NCBI GenBank assembly: GCA_016932415.1
Contig: JAFGCX010000020.1
Span: 186,001-250,000 of the forward strand
Direction of reading: 5' to 3'
Source: Candidatus Krumholzibacteriota bacterium
GTDB lineage: Bacteria; Krumholzibacteriota; Krumholzibacteriia; Krumholzibacteriales; Krumholzibacteriaceae
DNA: 64,000 nt
Part shown: one piece after another, positions 56,456 through 64,000 of the stretch
How the letters are laid out: each line of letters starts with the position of its first letter
Position numbering within the stretch: the first letter of the stretch is position 1
Notes under the pieces: model-generated
Seen by the model: only the letters and a program-made list of their open reading frames with translations
Told to the model about the DNA's origin: nothing
Databases searched by the model: none
Made by a program: the position numbers and the translations under genes

Positions 56456-58141
56456 TCAGAATCTCTCGGTAAGCGAAATATGTATCCTGGTACTGCTTAA
56501 AGAAAGTTCCTCTCCTACACCGAAGCTCAGCTCGACTATGCCGAACTGCGAAAATGAGACGACGCCGAAACCACTCCCGTTTCTGATCTGCCAACCTTCC
56601 GAACGCCTGTAATACGCTCCTGTATCATTGAAGAAAAAAATCCTGCTTTCTTCTCCGAACCGGTACTCGAGACTGAGACAACCTGTCTTCTCACCCCGGA
56701 ACTGGTTTTCGCGGTATCCGCGCAGGGATCTGGCCCCGCCAAGAAGAGACATCTCGGAAAGCGACAGGACGCCTCTGGAAAATACTCCCTCCGAGACGAG
56801 CCTCGTAAAGAACTCCTGCCCCGGGCGCAACGGAACCTCGATCGCTCCATCAAATTGGTACAGAAGTTGGTTCTCCACCTCTTTTGCTCCTACCTGATGG
56901 ACCGAAGACCTTCTCGCGCCTTCAAGATAGATATTGAATCTGAGACCTCTTCCCCTGTTCCTGATCAATCCGAGCCTGTATCTCTGCCTTGAATTCCTGT
57001 CAACGGCACTCTGCCCTCCAAAAAGGGTCCTGTCAGCGAAAAAGCCCGTCGCAACTGAATAAACCGGACCGATCGGTATCCTCAGCGAGACTCCTCCCGA
57101 GGCAAGATCGTACAAAGTATCCTGCACCGTCTGTCTGAGCTCGCCGTCAAAATGGACAGGCATCGAGAAAAGGAAAGGTTCGGTAAATAGCAATCTTGTA
57201 TTCGAGTACTTTTGTCCGTCGTTAAGCCAGTCGAGGGAGACATCGCGGCCCTTTCCGGCGATGTTGCGAAGATCGAGGCGAAGCGATCCGTTCAGCCTGT
57301 AATCCCCGTCATCCTTGCGCGAAAACCCGAATGCTCCGAGAAATGAGTTGCTGTTCTCCTTTTCAATTACCGGAACTACGAGCTCGACCTTTCCCATATC
57401 GCTTCTTATAACCCTGATCCTGCCGGTGGATCTGAAGAGCCCGGAACTTCCAAGGTATTCCTGAGATTTTTCAAGGTCTCTCTCGCTGAATCTTTTTCCC
57501 TTCCCGAGACGCGATGTCCTCAGCGCGACAGATGTGTCCGTCCTGGCTATCCCCTCGAATGTGACTCCTGAGATTATCGATATATCTCCGTTGTACTGCG
57601 AAAAGACGATGTCGACCGTATTGGCCTGCCGGTCGAATGAAAATCCAGTCATCCAGATCTGGGCAAAAGGATAACCTGAATCGACCTGTTCCCTGAGATA
57701 GACCTCCATAGATCTCCCGAGACGGCGTGGCTCGAAAGTTCTCCCTTCTTCGAGCCCGAGCCTTCCCGGCAGAGACCGGCGGTCATGATCTGATCCACCC
57801 GTGACCGTTATCTTCCCGACGAGCGCCTGCTCACCTTCGTACAGCTTCACGCCGACCGAGACTTTTCCTCCGGACAAAAGGGTATCTATCTCGATCTCGA
57901 CACCGAGAAGACCATGGGAAAAATAGATGGAATCTATCCTCGCCAGTTCCATCTCGATCATTCTTTCCGTAAGGATCTCTCCACGCCGTAAAAAAGTCTC
58001 CGAAACGAGTTCGTTGGAAGCGACCAGGTCCGATCCCCGCCACTCGACCTTTCTGATCGCCTGACCGCGCGCCCCCCCTGCCGATATGAGGATCAGGAAG
58101 GTCATGCTAGAAAAAAGCACGGCACTCCATTTTAAGCGCAT
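56456..58141 (-). CDS. Omp85/BamA-like outer-membrane protein with POTRA domains
   Basis: 561-aa protein with a signal peptide (1-27) and about three POTRA-like domains (residues 28-260; VEWRGSDLVASNELVSETFL, EGEQALVGKITVTGGSDHDR). A 16-strand-type barrel follows with the Omp85 lid motif GGARSLRGYREN (about residue 470), ending in an aromatic C-terminal residue (ISLTERF) typical of BAM substrates. Five-POTRA BamA is not matched, so this is more like TamA or a two-partner exporter. It overlaps the preceding 1134-aa gene by 35 nt, suggesting joint function. Confidence 0.85.
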   Translation of the reverse strand: MRLKWSAVLFSSMTFLILISAGGARGQAIRKVEWRGSDLVASNELVSETFLRRGEILTERMIEMELARIDSIYFSHGLLGVEIEIDTLLSGGKVSVGVKLYEGEQALVGKITVTGGSDHDRRSLPGRLGLEEGRTFEPRRLGRSMEVYLREQVDSGYPFAQIWMTGFSFDRQANTVDIVFSQYNGDISIISGVTFEGIARTDTSVALRTSRLGKGKRFSERDLEKSQEYLGSSGLFRSTGRIRVIRSDMGKVELVVPVIEKENSNSFLGAFGFSRKDDGDYRLNGSLRLDLRNIAGKGRDVSLDWLNDGQKYSNTRLLFTEPFLFSMPVHFDGELRQTVQDTLYDLASGGVSLRIPIGPVYSVATGFFADRTLFGGQSAVDRNSRQRYRLGLIRNRGRGLRFNIYLEGARRSSVHQVGAKEVENQLLYQFDGAIEVPLRPGQEFFTRLVSEGVFSRGVLSLSEMSLLGGARSLRGYRENQFRGEKTGCLSLEYRFGEESRIFFFNDTGAYYRRSEGWQIRNGSGFGVVSFSQFGIVELSFGVGEELSLSSTRIHISLTERF

Positions 58142-61100
58142 GGACCGTCTTCACCTCCCCGATATAGTCCTTTTCCCTTCGACCGGTATAGTTGATCCCC
58201 AGGCTGAGGTTTTTAGTCAGCCTGTACTGGCCGATAACCGCCCAATCCTGCCGAAGCCCCTCTTCGAGGAAAAAGAGAGGTTTGCCCGCATCTGACTGGA
58301 CTGTGGTGTAGGTGAACTTTAGAAATGCCGACATATGCACCTTGCGGCCGATCGAAGAGTTTATCGACGGCGTTGCCGCGTATGACCTCTGCCCCGCTCC
58401 CGAGACGGCATCGTTCCTGTTTTCTACTCCCAGTTTGAAAGAGAGCCTGGTAGATATCCTGTACCGGTAACCGAGTACGCTGGCCAGGTTGATCGATTCG
58501 ACCCTGTATCGCTGCTCGCCCGGTCCATCAGATCCGGTCGTTCGCAACTTTGTCCCTCCCTCGAGAGAAAGGCTGAATGCCTCCGACGGAAGAGACTCGA
58601 TCCTTAACTGGGTCTCTCTCGTGTACCTTGAAGTAGAAAAATCTCCCGAACGGTTATCTTCTTCGTCTTCCCTGAAATAAACAAGCTTGATATCGAACCG
58701 GTTCACGTCGTTGAGGAAACTCCATTCCTGCCTCAGGCTGTTCTTTCCGTACAGGGTCAGATCGTCACGCTGCAGCAGTCCCGGGTCGAGAAGATAGAGC
58801 CTGATCGTCTCATCGGTCGACGATCGCTCCTGGACGGAAAAGAAATGGTCGACGGAGAGATTCTTTCTCACCATGCCAAGAAATGAGGAATCCCCGCCAT
58901 CGGAACGGATGCCTCGTATTCCCCCGCCGATACTGGCTCTCCATGTCAATTCGACTGCCCTGACGACCTCCACATCCCCGCCGGGAAGATAGAGGACCAT
59001 GTAATCTCCCCTCTTCTGCCCTACTTCTCTTCCCTCCTCATCGTAGTCTCCCTCGTTTTCCCCCACATAGATCACCGCTTTTTCAAGCCGCCTGTCTTCT
59101 CCTGAACTGATTTTATACCCTACGTCGGTCGTTACCCCGGCGCTTTCCCATGAATCCCTGAACCTTATTTTTGCCAGGTCCTGGCTGCTCTCTAAACCAC
59201 TTGAGATATAACGCGTATTAACATGCATAATATACAGATCGATCATTTTTAAGTTGTCCCGATATCCTCCGTCCAACCGGATCTCATCGTTCTCTCTTTC
59301 CCCGGACCAATCTCCTCCGGAAGCTGACATTCGCTCGGTCCTCCGCCGACTGAATGAGAGATCGGCCCTGTATCTGCCTGTATCCCTTGATGCCAGTGAA
59401 AATCTGTTCTGATAATAATACCTGCCGGTGTCGGCCGCCGCTGGAACGAAGGAACGATACCTCTCCGTATCGAATTCGAATCGCGGGATTACCTTCCAGA
59501 GAGCGTAAGCTCCGGACAGGCTCGCAGACCTTCTGTCTTTTTCCCTTCCAGTACTCGTGTTAAAACCTTTCAAATCCAGGCCCCTCACCTGCGGATCTCC
59601 AAATCGCGCCGCGATATCTGTCATTTCTGCCGAAACGTCCCCCTTTCTTACAAGTCTTTTAGCGCTTGACGAGAAGGCCCAGAGGCTGTCTCCGCGCCAT
59701 TCCAGGGTAGCTCCGGCGAGATCCTCCCTGCCCGAAAGGATTTCATCTTCAAGATTCCAGTTTCTGTAGTAATAAGGATCTCTCGGTTTATCGGGGGATT
59801 CAAATCTCGATTCAAGAACGGAATATTCTCCCTTTAATGAAAGGTGACTTGAAGCGATGCTCATATCCCTTATTCCCGCCTCGGCCTTCCACGCCCCTCC
59901 CATGTTGTCGCTGTCGTCTATCGAAGAAAGTATATTATTGTCCTTTTCACTCAGATCTCCTTCGGCATCAAGATAGAAGATCCCCTTTTCGGCCGACACT
60001 CCCAGAGCGAATACTCTCTTTCTCTGCGGCAGCGGAAGTCTGCGGCCTACGGAATAGCTGCCATTTCCTTCTCCCACGAACCTGTATCTGATCTCTCCGC
60101 GCCTGGTGAACCCGTCAGGTTCGTAATCTCCCTCTCCAGGCCCGGTCCTGAAGAATGAAAGCCTGAACGCTCCCCCCTCTTCGACAAAAAGATAGTGTTC
60201 GGGAATGGAATCGGCCGGAACCAGAATATAGCAGTCTTCGGCGTCATCGACCTCTTCGATCCCTGAAGCCATCGCTTCGCCGGCATCATCTCCCGCCGAG
60301 CGTATGATATCCTTCTCATCAGGTGTGATGAGCTGCCTGAGGGGATCGTCCGGATCGTCGCTCTCCTGGAAGAAAAAGGCATTGAGCCTTACTGCCCCGC
60401 GCGCAAGCGGCGCGTACCATTCTCCCGTCACCGTAGATCTTGTGAAATCGTCCTCCCCGGTCTGGTAATCGATGACGATCTCCGAATCAGCCGTTATCAG
60501 CGTCTTTTCAGTGAACGTCACCGCACCTCTGTTGTAATCGATCGTATAGTCCTTCTCGCCGCCCCTGGAGAGTCTTCTGCCATCGAGATAGACCGTCTCC
60601 GTCCCGGAAAGGATGACGACTCCATTGAACCTTCTGGCGTCAAGGAGTTCGTACGGTCCCTGGACTCCCTCGCGGCCTCTCATTGAAACTGTTTTGAATC
60701 TTCCTTTGGAGATCCCTCCTCCGGCGAGGAACTTCTGATCACCGATCTTCATTCCTACGCTCGCCCCCCGCAGCTCTCTTTTAAAAGATGAATAATCCGA
60801 CCAGTCAAGACCGGTGCTGAAATCGCCGAGCCTTGCCTCGATATTTCTGCTTTTGACTTCTATATAGACCTTGTCGAGATGTTTCAGTTCCTCGGTATTT
60901 CCCTCAGGCTGCACCGGCAGGTTATCATCTGTCAGGTAGGCTTTCACCTCAAGGTCCCTTGCCAGTTTTCCAGCCATCGTGACCTTGAGCGACTGATCGA
61001 TCCCCAGTCCCCTGTTCGACCCTATTGAAAAACCTATCGTTTTGCTTCCCGACAATCTCAGCCTGTACGGAGACCCCTGTTTTCTCTCTTCATCCCTTCC

Positions 61101-61511
61101 CGTGGATATCAATCCTGTCTTGAGATGAGGAAGCGGTTTCTCGCCAGGAAACCTGATCGCGGTAACAGGGGCGAAAGCGAAAGGATATTTCGACCACGAA
61201 GCTCTAAAGATCTCCGTACCGGATGGAGGATCTACCAGTATGATAAAACCGTTCAACGTATTGATCCTGTAATCGGCCTCCCTTATCAAAAGCTGTCCGT
61301 CGATGAAGACTGAATCGCTCCCCGGAATGATAAAGGCGTCCACGAGATCTATCCTTGTCTGCCCCTCCTGAAGCTTCAGATCGAAAGAGCTCCTGAACTT
61401 GTCCCTGACCGGTCCCTTTTGAAGATCGGCACAATTCGACTCCGTAGGGATCATCAGCATCGAGATCAGGAAAAGAGACTGAAGAAAAGGACTGAATCGC
61501 CTCATGATCAT
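58107..61511 (-). CDS. Very large predicted surface/outer-membrane protein of unknown function
   Basis: 1134 aa with a signal peptide (1-28). An N-terminal Ig-like module (about 60-108, SVFIDGQLLIREADYRINTL) is repeated at about 300-350 (TVYLDGRRLSRGGEKDYTID). Between them lie a conserved-looking stretch KAYLTDDNLPVQPEGNTEEL (191-210) and GVQGPYELL. From about residue 370 onward the chain is an array of charged, alternating beta-strands without helices, ending KMECRAFF with an aromatic end, as in outer-membrane barrels. I do not recognise a named family. It is bracketed by a propeller gene (4-nt overlap) and an Omp85 gene (35-nt overlap). Confidence 0.75.
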   Translation of the reverse strand: MIMRRFSPFLQSLFLISMLMIPTESNCADLQKGPVRDKFRSSFDLKLQEGQTRIDLVDAFIIPGSDSVFIDGQLLIREADYRINTLNGFIILVDPPSGTEIFRASWSKYPFAFAPVTAIRFPGEKPLPHLKTGLISTGRDEERKQGSPYRLRLSGSKTIGFSIGSNRGLGIDQSLKVTMAGKLARDLEVKAYLTDDNLPVQPEGNTEELKHLDKVYIEVKSRNIEARLGDFSTGLDWSDYSSFKRELRGASVGMKIGDQKFLAGGGISKGRFKTVSMRGREGVQGPYELLDARRFNGVVILSGTETVYLDGRRLSRGGEKDYTIDYNRGAVTFTEKTLITADSEIVIDYQTGEDDFTRSTVTGEWYAPLARGAVRLNAFFFQESDDPDDPLRQLITPDEKDIIRSAGDDAGEAMASGIEEVDDAEDCYILVPADSIPEHYLFVEEGGAFRLSFFRTGPGEGDYEPDGFTRRGEIRYRFVGEGNGSYSVGRRLPLPQRKRVFALGVSAEKGIFYLDAEGDLSEKDNNILSSIDDSDNMGGAWKAEAGIRDMSIASSHLSLKGEYSVLESRFESPDKPRDPYYYRNWNLEDEILSGREDLAGATLEWRGDSLWAFSSSAKRLVRKGDVSAEMTDIAARFGDPQVRGLDLKGFNTSTGREKDRRSASLSGAYALWKVIPRFEFDTERYRSFVPAAADTGRYYYQNRFSLASRDTGRYRADLSFSRRRTERMSASGGDWSGERENDEIRLDGGYRDNLKMIDLYIMHVNTRYISSGLESSQDLAKIRFRDSWESAGVTTDVGYKISSGEDRRLEKAVIYVGENEGDYDEEGREVGQKRGDYMVLYLPGGDVEVVRAVELTWRASIGGGIRGIRSDGGDSSFLGMVRKNLSVDHFFSVQERSSTDETIRLYLLDPGLLQRDDLTLYGKNSLRQEWSFLNDVNRFDIKLVYFREDEEDNRSGDFSTSRYTRETQLRIESLPSEAFSLSLEGGTKLRTTGSDGPGEQRYRVESINLASVLGYRYRISTRLSFKLGVENRNDAVSGAGQRSYAATPSINSSIGRKVHMSAFLKFTYTTVQSDAGKPLFFLEEGLRQDWAVIGQYRLTKNLSLGINYTGRREKDYIGEVKTVHALKMECRAFF

Positions 61512-62458
61512 TTACCAGGATAAATCATTTTAAAGACAAGGATGGAATGGGAGCCGATATCGGCAATATAGAGATCGTCGTTCCAGCCTATCGTCACGGC
61601 CGCGGGTCGTATCTTTCTATCGAAAAAGGAATCGATCTTCTGGACGTACCTGCATTGAGAATCGAAGACGAAAACCGCGCCGGCTTCCGAATCGGCAATA
61701 AAAACATACCCTTCACCATCGGTGGCCAGGTACCTGGGAGATCTGTACGCTGATCCTCCCGGAAGGGTAAGAAGAGACTCAAACGCCCCTGACGGAGAGA
61801 AGACCTGTACCCTCCTGTTCGCTTGATCAGCGACAATGATTCGTTCATCAGGAAGCATCGCCGCCTTTACGGGCCGGTTGAAGCTCCCCTCACCCAATCC
61901 GAAATCATCCCACGAGATCTCTATGTCAAGAAAGGGACTCCACACGGCGACAGCATGGTTATCTGGATCAGCCGTGAGGAATCTTCCCCCGTTCCCCCCC
62001 GTCAGGGAGACCGGTTTCATTCCCTCGACACCTTCAAAAGAGATAAGGATATCGAGGTAGGAGCCTTTTCCATCGTATCTCAAAACGCGGTTCCTCGAAT
62101 AATCAAGGATATAGACGAATGGCCCGTTCAGGGCCAGGTCGATCGGATAGAAAGAGGCGTTGCGGGGCGGATTCTCGAACTCGATATGACTCCCGTCCGG
62201 AGAGAACCTGAAGACCTTGCCTGTCATCGCGTCGGCTACGAAAAGAAACCGGTCAGGATCGGCGGCAAGCCCGAGGGGCTCCATCAGAACATCCTCTCCG
62301 AGACGTTCAATTTTTTGGTGGAGTATTATTGCCGGGGCTGATCCCTTCTCTTTCAGGGGATCTTCGGAAAATGCCGATTCCGGTGACAAAAAGAGAATGA
62401 TCAGAAAAAGAACGAGGGTGCCGATATTTTCCGCTTTAAGAATACTGCCGCGAGACAT
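61508..62458 (-). CDS. Secreted six-bladed beta-propeller (NHL-like) protein
   Basis: 316-aa exported protein; a hydrophobic signal sequence (about 10-30) precedes a series of NHL-like repeats such as EPLGLAADPDRFLFVADAMT, YPIDLALNGPFVYILDYSRN, RPVKAAMLPDERIIVADQAN and SPRYLATDGEGYVFIADSEA. These make a propeller used for protein or ligand binding. It is not a lipoprotein by eye (no lipobox cysteine). It is coupled to the 1134-aa gene by a 4-nt overlap. Confidence 0.8.
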   Translation of the reverse strand: MSRGSILKAENIGTLVLFLIILFLSPESAFSEDPLKEKGSAPAIILHQKIERLGEDVLMEPLGLAADPDRFLFVADAMTGKVFRFSPDGSHIEFENPPRNASFYPIDLALNGPFVYILDYSRNRVLRYDGKGSYLDILISFEGVEGMKPVSLTGGNGGRFLTADPDNHAVAVWSPFLDIEISWDDFGLGEGSFNRPVKAAMLPDERIIVADQANRRVQVFSPSGAFESLLTLPGGSAYRSPRYLATDGEGYVFIADSEAGAVFVFDSQCRYVQKIDSFFDRKIRPAAVTIGWNDDLYIADIGSHSILVFKMIYPGK

Positions 62459-62470
62459 TCCGCTCCCCTG

Positions 62471-63334
62471 CTAGAAGGACCGGGTCATCGTCATCCTGAA
62501 TCCATCCGGCGCCGGATCGATATCTATCGATATCTGCCGCGACTGCTCCTGTGAGGAATAGTCGCCACCACCGGCGATCTTGAAAGCATCGACCATACTG
62601 ACGACCCGTACGCCGAGCGCGAAGAAAAGTGTGTAGACGATTCTTTTCTTCGAGACATCATACCCCGAATAAAGGGAACTATACCTTCTGTAGACTCCTT
62701 CATTCTCCCATCGCCAGCTCATATCTCCGGTCAATATATTATCCTGATAGTAGTCCTCGATAGCGGCCATATCAGGATAGTACATGTCCCTGGCTTCCCT
62801 GAGAATATATTCGTTATACCCGCCGGGACCATCGTTGCTCATATAATTGGCGATAATCTTGTAATACGATTCTGAATGTCCCGTGCCCGACACGCCGGCG
62901 TACGCGACGGCGTAATCTTCAAACGCGTCCCTTCGGGCCACCGATTGCCAGTAAAAAGCCCCGGCGCTTATCCAGGCTATCCCTTCGAGGCTGAAATATA
63001 TCTTTGATCTCACGGTACGCCCCATCCTGTGCTGCCCGAGTCCGGGGAGCAGGAAACTAAGCAATGCTTCTTTTTTTGCAGACCTTGCGGCAAGATCAGC
63101 CCCCGTGTATTCAACACCGGAAAAAGGCAAAGAGACAAGCCCGGTGCTATTTCCCTCGCCTCGTCGACTGGTCTCTTCGGGAAGGTTGAACCGCGGAGCG
63201 CCAGACCGGTCGAATAAACTCTCTTCCCGGTCCATCAGGATCATCGGGGAATCGGCACCTGTTCCAGCACAATCGGCCGGCATCGGCGAATATATGACGA
63301 TTGCCATGATAAAAACAAACAAGAGATTTCTCAC
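62471..63334 (-). CDS. DUF5683-like exported protein
   Basis: 287-aa protein with a signal peptide (1-23). The core KEALLSFLLPGLGQHRMGRT, followed by a hydrophobic helix (YFSLEGIAWISAGAFYW) and a later helix with VVSMVDAFKIAGGG, resembles the DUF5683 group of FCB-type bacteria. The C-terminus MTMTRSF ends in Phe. A similar paralogue lies 12 nt upstream on the same strand. Function unknown; envelope location likely. Confidence 0.68.
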   Translation of the reverse strand: MRNLLFVFIMAIVIYSPMPADCAGTGADSPMILMDREESLFDRSGAPRFNLPEETSRRGEGNSTGLVSLPFSGVEYTGADLAARSAKKEALLSFLLPGLGQHRMGRTVRSKIYFSLEGIAWISAGAFYWQSVARRDAFEDYAVAYAGVSGTGHSESYYKIIANYMSNDGPGGYNEYILREARDMYYPDMAAIEDYYQDNILTGDMSWRWENEGVYRRYSSLYSGYDVSKKRIVYTLFFALGVRVVSMVDAFKIAGGGDYSSQEQSRQISIDIDPAPDGFRMTMTRSF

Positions 63335-63346
63335 CGCGTTGCCCTC

Positions 63347-64000
63347 CTAGAAACGATAACTGATTCCCACGGTAGGGGTGACTGCATCCGGCGAAAGATC
63401 TATTGACCATCCACCGTCGTCCAGACTGTCATTATTCATTCGATGAGCCAGCCAGAGAGCGTCTATCATCGATACGACCCTGTTCACGATAAGCATCATC
63501 AAGTGCCTGTCAGCGCTTACGAGGAACTCGTCACTCACCGCGCGCATATCCCAGTAAGCCAACCTGTTGGGTGTCCACGGCTGGAAATTCTCGTATGTCC
63601 CGTCCCATGAATCTCCATCCCAGTCATCCCAGCCGAAAGCGAAAGCGTCATATTTCCCGCAATTCTCGTAATACTCTTCCCTGTCGAGATTCTTCGGTAT
63701 ATAGATAAAATAGAAATCCGCCATCTCGTCGGCATTGTCATTATAGACATGCCAGTCGCTGCATCCCCCGATCCCCTCGCAGTAGGGGTGCTGCAGAAGG
63801 AACCTCGCCTCGCTCCAGTGAGTGTCGCAGAACTCCTCGTATTCTTTTTTACTGTCCTTTCCCTTGTCATAATTATCCTTGTATCCATACCAGAGATAGG
63901 CGTCGATCCCGATAAAAGCAGGTACTCTGGCAAGGGTCGACCAGTCTGACCAATCGCCCCGGTCGACATAAAGATACAATTCTCCAAGCCCGGGCAGAAG
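63347..64000 (-). CDS. DUF5683-like protein, 5' end beyond the window
   Basis: Partial gene: the frame stays open to the window edge (reading LLPGLGELYLYVDRG from 64000), so the N-terminus is missing. It shares LLPGLG and the NRVVSMIDALWLAHR helix with the adjacent DUF5683-like gene and ends in an aromatic residue (VGISYRF). An insertion rich in Trp, Tyr, Asp and Cys (about 100 residues) distinguishes it. Function unknown; it is the first visible member of the envelope gene run. Confidence 0.7.
   Translation of the reverse strand, partial: LLPGLGELYLYVDRGDWSDWSTLARVPAFIGIDAYLWYGYKDNYDKGKDSKKEYEEFCDTHWSEARFLLQHPYCEGIGGCSDWHVYNDNADEMADFYFIYIPKNLDREEYYENCGKYDAFAFGWDDWDGDSWDGTYENFQPWTPNRLAYWDMRAVSDEFLVSADRHLMMLIVNRVVSMIDALWLAHRMNNDSLDDGGWSIDLSPDAVTPTVGISYRF

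Follow-up and report, generated by a model that had tools for sequence, protein, structure and literature searches.

A five-gene envelope run in Krumholzibacteriota forms the 3' half of a type IX secretion operon and encodes a predicted compact relative of SprA

Gene content of the locus and its type IX context

The window analyzed here is a stretch of 64 kb (C20:186001-250000) of a Krumholzibacteriota genome of 3.1 Mb that is 95.5% complete. The list of ORFs of this window places five envelope genes on the minus strand (Table 1), packed exactly as the sequence-only reading had described them: 12-nt gaps separate the gene of DUF5683-like protein a (DUFa) from that of its paralogue DUFb and the latter from the propeller gene, the propeller gene overlaps the barrel gene by 4 nt, and the barrel gene overlaps the omp85 gene by 35 nt. 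The DUFa gene runs past the window edge; as a whole it encodes a protein of 338 aa with a signal peptide (L009:9347-10363). On the 3' side, the run is followed after 54 nt by thiC and a DinG-type helicase gene, and an Rfam search of the window returned no match.

Table 1. Features of the envelope gene run, in window coordinates.
Feature	Position	Strand	Remark
DUF5683-like protein a (DUFa)	63347..64000, continuing past 64000	-	last 217 codons in window
DUF5683-like protein b (DUFb), 287 aa, paralogue of DUFa	62471..63334	-	
Exported NHL beta-propeller, 316 aa	61508..62458	-	
Giant outer-membrane beta-barrel, 1134 aa, compact SprA relative	58107..61511	-	predicted
First SprA-shared module copy, residues 47-112	61176..61373	-	vs SprA 693-762
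Second SprA-shared module copy, core residues 300-352	60456..60614	-	profile comparison
Barrel strand region, residues 151-1133	58113..61061	-	about 36-38 long predicted strands, hand count from DSSP list
Barrel/omp85 gene overlap, 35 nt	58107..58141	-	start codon position conserved in 33/46 loci
Omp85-superfamily protein, 561 aa, three POTRA domains and RGY motif	56456..58141	-	

The operon extends about 9 kb further upstream, beyond the window edge. There, on the same strand, DUFa is preceded by genes for a 1089-aa M6-type protease bearing a type IX sorting tail, a 337-aa PorV/PorQ-family protein and a 1325-aa PorU sortase, which gives the eight-gene order PorU, PorV, M6, DUFa, DUFb, NHL, barrel, Omp85. 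Family profile searches assigned PorU with 541.9 bits (cut-off 420), and its relatives retain the GHG motif in 32 of 33 and the Cys motif in 31 of 33 cases. The PorV-like protein matched the PorV/PorQ family with 222 bits (cut-off 90) and the PorV equivalog below its cut-off (144.6 vs 250 bits), and HExGH is retained in 29 of 31 relatives of the M6 protein. In the nine genomes searched, the best PorU was always found in this cluster, and no other reached or came near the cut-off. The genome also encodes a full-length SprA of about 2160 aa (2162-aa frame) on another contig, with 471 bits at a cut-off of 200, and the type IX sorting-tail family TIGR04183 is matched 76 times in it. SprA profile matches were present in all 78 Krumholzibacteriota genomes searched, 71 of them above cut-off. 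The full-length sprA gene (G000:C10:320001-339000) sits between lptF/lptG plus a GWxTD-domain gene and rimP-nusA.

Since the genes for PorU, the PorV-family protein and the M6 protein with its sorting tail lie directly upstream, and since SprA and the 76 sorting-tail matches are encoded in the same genome, the five-gene run makes up the 3' (downstream) half of a type IX secretion operon of eight genes whose start lies outside the window. The sequence-only reading had proposed a dedicated assembly or secretion machine matching none of the standard type I-VI systems. A conserved neighbourhood, a barrel with its own Omp85 and the link to secretion were borne out, and the mismatch to types I-VI is real, but only because the operon is of type IX: with PorU and PorV/PorQ-family genes just outside the window, the run belongs to a type IX system, or is an accessory of one, and does not form a machine of its own.

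The known PorL/M motor of type IX secretion is either absent from Krumholzibacteriota or diverged. GldM (TIGR03517) and GldL (TIGR03513) were not found above cut-off in nine genomes of the phylum (G000, G014, G033, G074, G079, G002, G007, G042 and G005), three of which are single-contig; the sole match was GldL in G079 with 19.8 bits at a cut-off of 68.3, and both proteins were detected in three Bacteroidota controls. No paper on type IX secretion in Krumholzibacteriota or Zixibacteria, or with DUF5683, was found in the literature library searched.

Regarding the two DUF5683-like proteins, their paralogy is supported by profiles that cross-match, and 13 of 41 relatives match DUF5683 (PF18935) at E<=1e-3; the window copies themselves stay below the Pfam cut-off, with 16.4 vs 26.7 bits for DUFb and no match for DUFa. 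The structural model of DUFb predicts a helical core with two helices of about 40 residues and a C-terminal beta-hairpin ending in Phe. Comparison of this protein with solved structures gave PorM/GldM periplasmic domains as the top three PDB matches, with non-significant E values of 0.23-0.42, and a GldM-like fold was not retained. The propeller read from the sequence shows NHL repeats in Pfam and matched neither the sorting tail nor T9SS_PorZ in Pfam and NCBIfam.

A C-terminal Phe is found in four of the five window proteins, where three aromatic ends typical of BAM-inserted proteins had been counted before, and it is conserved in relatives of DUFb (46/46), DUFa (38/45), the barrel (50/56) and Omp85 (41/50), with the shortfall partly due to cut contigs. 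The terminal Phe is no guide to a barrel in each case: the helical model rules out DUFb as a barrel, and this protein combines a barrel-style C-terminus with a predicted helical fold.

The 1134-aa barrel protein and its relation to SprA

The 1134-aa protein has no Pfam match. In NCBIfam it gave a local match to SprA (TIGR04189) in one stretch, with 27.5 bits at a cut-off of 200, and sub-threshold matches to phage-tail families. An AF2 model built from 69 sequences (mean pLDDT 85, pTM 0.75) predicts about 36 strands, in agreement with the barrel-like protein of the sequence-only reading. When this model was searched against 350,542 PDB chains, the three best matches were to SprA with E values of 4e-11 to 6e-10 (PDB structures of SprA/Sov: 6h3i, 8gl6, 8gl8), followed by ordinary TonB-dependent barrels at 2e-8 and LptD at about 1e-6. 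The fold search alone is no proof of kinship with SprA, because the superposition of both barrels is poor (TM 0.26, rmsd 31) and the TonB-dependent barrels come next. The LptD profile PF04453 found nothing above cut-off in the phylum and missed the Bacteroidota control likewise. A search of the viral structure library returned no more than a SusC-like barrel and tail fibres, and the barrel profile, run against the sequences of solved structures, gave a single chance match (E 0.33).

The kinship is carried by profile comparison of the barrel family with 39 SprA sequences, in which hhalign returned nothing in global mode and matches in local mode only. Residues 299-420 of the barrel matched SprA 706-816 with an E value of 8.5e-10, and residues 48-113, the N-terminal copy of this module (Table 1), matched the same part of SprA with an E value of 2.7e-7. 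Towards the C-terminus, residues 928-1073 matched SprA 1985-2142 with a probability of 67%, and the order of this match and that of residues 299-420 is shared by the two proteins. A reversed SprA profile used as decoy reached at most 0.6%. Based on the two module matches, the C-terminal match and the decoy, we conclude that the 1134-aa protein is a compact and remote relative of SprA and not SprA itself. Several members of the family also show weak phage-tail matches in the SprA-shared module (NF052337, TIGR02217/DUF2460).

Conservation of the operon and coupling of omp85 to the barrel gene

Of 80 genomes of the phylum, 77 encode the barrel, with identities reaching down to about 28%; each has a single copy, except where the gene is split over contigs or broken into pieces. 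Iterated profiles were applied to six-frame segments of 28 Krumholzibacteriota loci with enough flank, and all eight genes were found in 24 of these neighbourhoods; two lacked M6, one lacked M6 and PorV, and one lacked a recognized NHL gene. As the gene order is kept across the whole phylum, the run is more than chance. At three loci (L119, L121 and L123) the propeller gene adjoins the barrel gene, with most other members absent or out of view, an adjacency that points to a partnership of the two proteins.

A genome scan revealed the barrel family also in Bacteroidota, e.g., in Fluviicola, Pedobacter, Lewinella and Saprospiraceae, where its gene stands alone and not beside porU/porV. Scattering of the genes in relatives, which the sequence-only reading had regarded as evidence against itself, was therefore seen for the barrel gene in Bacteroidota and not within the phylum. 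Among 198 Bacteroidota genomes, 121 encode the barrel and all 121 encode SprA, 33 have SprA without the barrel, 44 have neither, and no SprA-negative genome carries the barrel. The Fisher p of 2.6e-23 for this co-occurrence overstates the case, because genomes that share ancestry are not independent. Given the 33 SprA-positive genomes without the barrel and the lack of porU/porV adjacency in Bacteroidota, the barrel is tied to type IX secretion yet not required for it. Across this broad Bacteroidota sample the family is found in about 60% of the genomes, as well as in nearly all Krumholzibacteriota; it is unnamed in Pfam and NCBIfam, where the Bacteroidota members matched no named family above cut-off either. 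One further locus, L137, stems from a record titled Glaciecola amylolytica (CP034120.1) and resembles the Fluviicola loci L126, L127 and L139 in neighbourhood and sequence; this record is probably a mislabelled Bacteroidota genome.

The Omp85 protein contains three POTRA stretches according to Pfam (58.1 vs 21.3 bits), close to what had been read from the sequence, and an RGY motif at residue 474. Its matches to Omp85-type barrels were sub-threshold, and it scored below the equivalog cut-offs of both BamA (93.2 vs 297 bits) and TamA (17.7 vs 625 bits). Nine other Omp85 matches were found in the genome besides the one in the window. A second small Omp85 of 499 aa with one POTRA is encoded about 20 kb upstream (L010:8593-10092; C20 about 268.6-270.1 kb).

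Counted from the omp85 ATG, the omp85 and barrel genes overlap by exactly 35 nt in 33 of 46 loci, and at several of the remaining loci the ATG is found at 32 nt or at a 1-nt overlap. The letters of this ATG come from a conserved His codon and a next codon beginning with G. The His codon is CAT in 33 of 42 loci as compared to 18.2 expected from local codon use, an excess which indicates that the omp85 start is kept beyond the demands of the barrel protein sequence. The conserved 35-nt start and the CAT excess support a functional pair, and judging from these sequence features barrel and omp85 are probably translationally coupled.

Possible role of the operon and comparison with known systems

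We lean towards the reading that the run is half of a phylum-wide type IX operon serving the sortase/shuttle branch, in which the barrel would be a second SprA-type channel or scaffold and Omp85, the propeller and the DUF5683-like proteins its partners. We infer the role of the barrel, the direction of transport, its substrate and its partners as follows. PorU, PorV and the cargo with its sorting tail (CTD) would enter the periplasm by Sec, and the cargo would cross the outer membrane at SprA. Omp85 would most likely be the dedicated insertion factor that installs the compact barrel, which in turn may move or hold PorV-bound cargo, the sortase or a surface anchor at the place where PorU removes the sorting tail. 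The propeller most likely acts as a partner of the barrel in the periplasm, whose other partners, the two DUF5683-like proteins, are most likely helical and associated with the membrane. The attachment complex of P. gingivalis, made up of PorU, PorV, PorQ and PorZ, is separate from the translocon (PMC7463736), and in F. johnsoniae the lateral opening of SprA is the docking site of PorV (PMC10994853). An SprA-like barrel beside PorU/PorV could be the point at which PorV-bound cargo is handed over to the sortase. The more specific claim that the barrel is a second, compact SprA-type protein-conducting channel and that, in Krumholzibacteriota, it forms part of a type IX system without recognizable PorLM motor is put forward only tentatively.

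Alternatively, barrel, propeller and Omp85 might deliver an LPS- or lipid-like surface anchor for PorU and so act in the manner of PorZ/PorQ of Porphyromonas gingivalis. Their fixed linkage to porU and the fact that PorZ of P. gingivalis is a beta-propeller protein would fit such a role; nevertheless, we consider it doubtful, because the propeller of the operon has neither a sorting tail nor a PorZ match and because SprA outranks LptD in the fold search (4e-11 vs about 1e-6), neither match being global. It is less probable still that Omp85, barrel and propeller conduct no cargo and serve as an assembly aid for SprA, PorV or other large type IX barrels. An assembly function would suit the general role of Omp85 proteins in building barrels, the probable coupling of omp85 to the barrel gene, and the fact that SprA, PorV and the compact barrel are all large or numerous barrels with aromatic ends. 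However, the element conserved most widely beyond the phylum is the barrel rather than Omp85, and the barrel is missing from 33 SprA-positive Bacteroidota.

The position of the barrel gene away from porU/porV in Bacteroidota and the fact that family libraries hold no name for it would be in line with a dedicated machine for outer-membrane assembly or secretion that stands apart from the known systems. We regard this as very unlikely in view of the fixed PorU/PorV linkage in the phylum, the kinship with SprA and the absence of the barrel from all 44 SprA-negative Bacteroidota. Type IX secretion is known almost wholly from a few Bacteroidota. With Krumholzibacteriota, a phylum outside Bacteroidota is seen to keep PorU, PorV and SprA and to add a fixed envelope set, with no recognizable motor. 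If the favoured reading of a sortase/shuttle operon with a second SprA-type barrel is true, then work on this well-studied system would have overlooked one of its parts, a barrel related to SprA and encoded once per genome in most of the SprA-positive Bacteroidota sampled.

Compared to the PorU-PorV-PorQ-PorZ attachment complex of P. gingivalis, the operon is alike in its PorU sortase, its PorV-family protein and the presence of a propeller; by contrast, this propeller differs from PorZ in the features given above, and the operon adds the giant barrel, Omp85 and the two DUF5683-like proteins. Its PorU-, PorV- and M6-like proteins also match the PorU2/PorV2/M6i set (NF052324, NF052325 and NF052323) in part, but all three models stay below cut-off, PorU proper scores far above PorU2 (541.9 vs 135.5 bits), and the M6 protein of the operon differs in that HExxH is kept. 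With BamA and TamA, the Omp85 of the operon shares POTRA domains, an Omp85 barrel and the RGY motif, whereas it has three POTRA stretches, scores below both cut-offs and is encoded with, and probably coupled to, one particular barrel. Finally, the barrel differs from SprA/Sov (TIGR04189) in its length, which is half that of SprA (1134 vs 2160 aa), in its score of 27.5 vs 200 bits, and in being encoded beside porU/porV and omp85 in addition to a full-length SprA. Common to both are the module, which is present in two copies in the barrel, a weak match of the C-terminal barrel part and about 36 predicted strands, and the likeness extends to their co-occurrence and to the best fold matches in the PDB.
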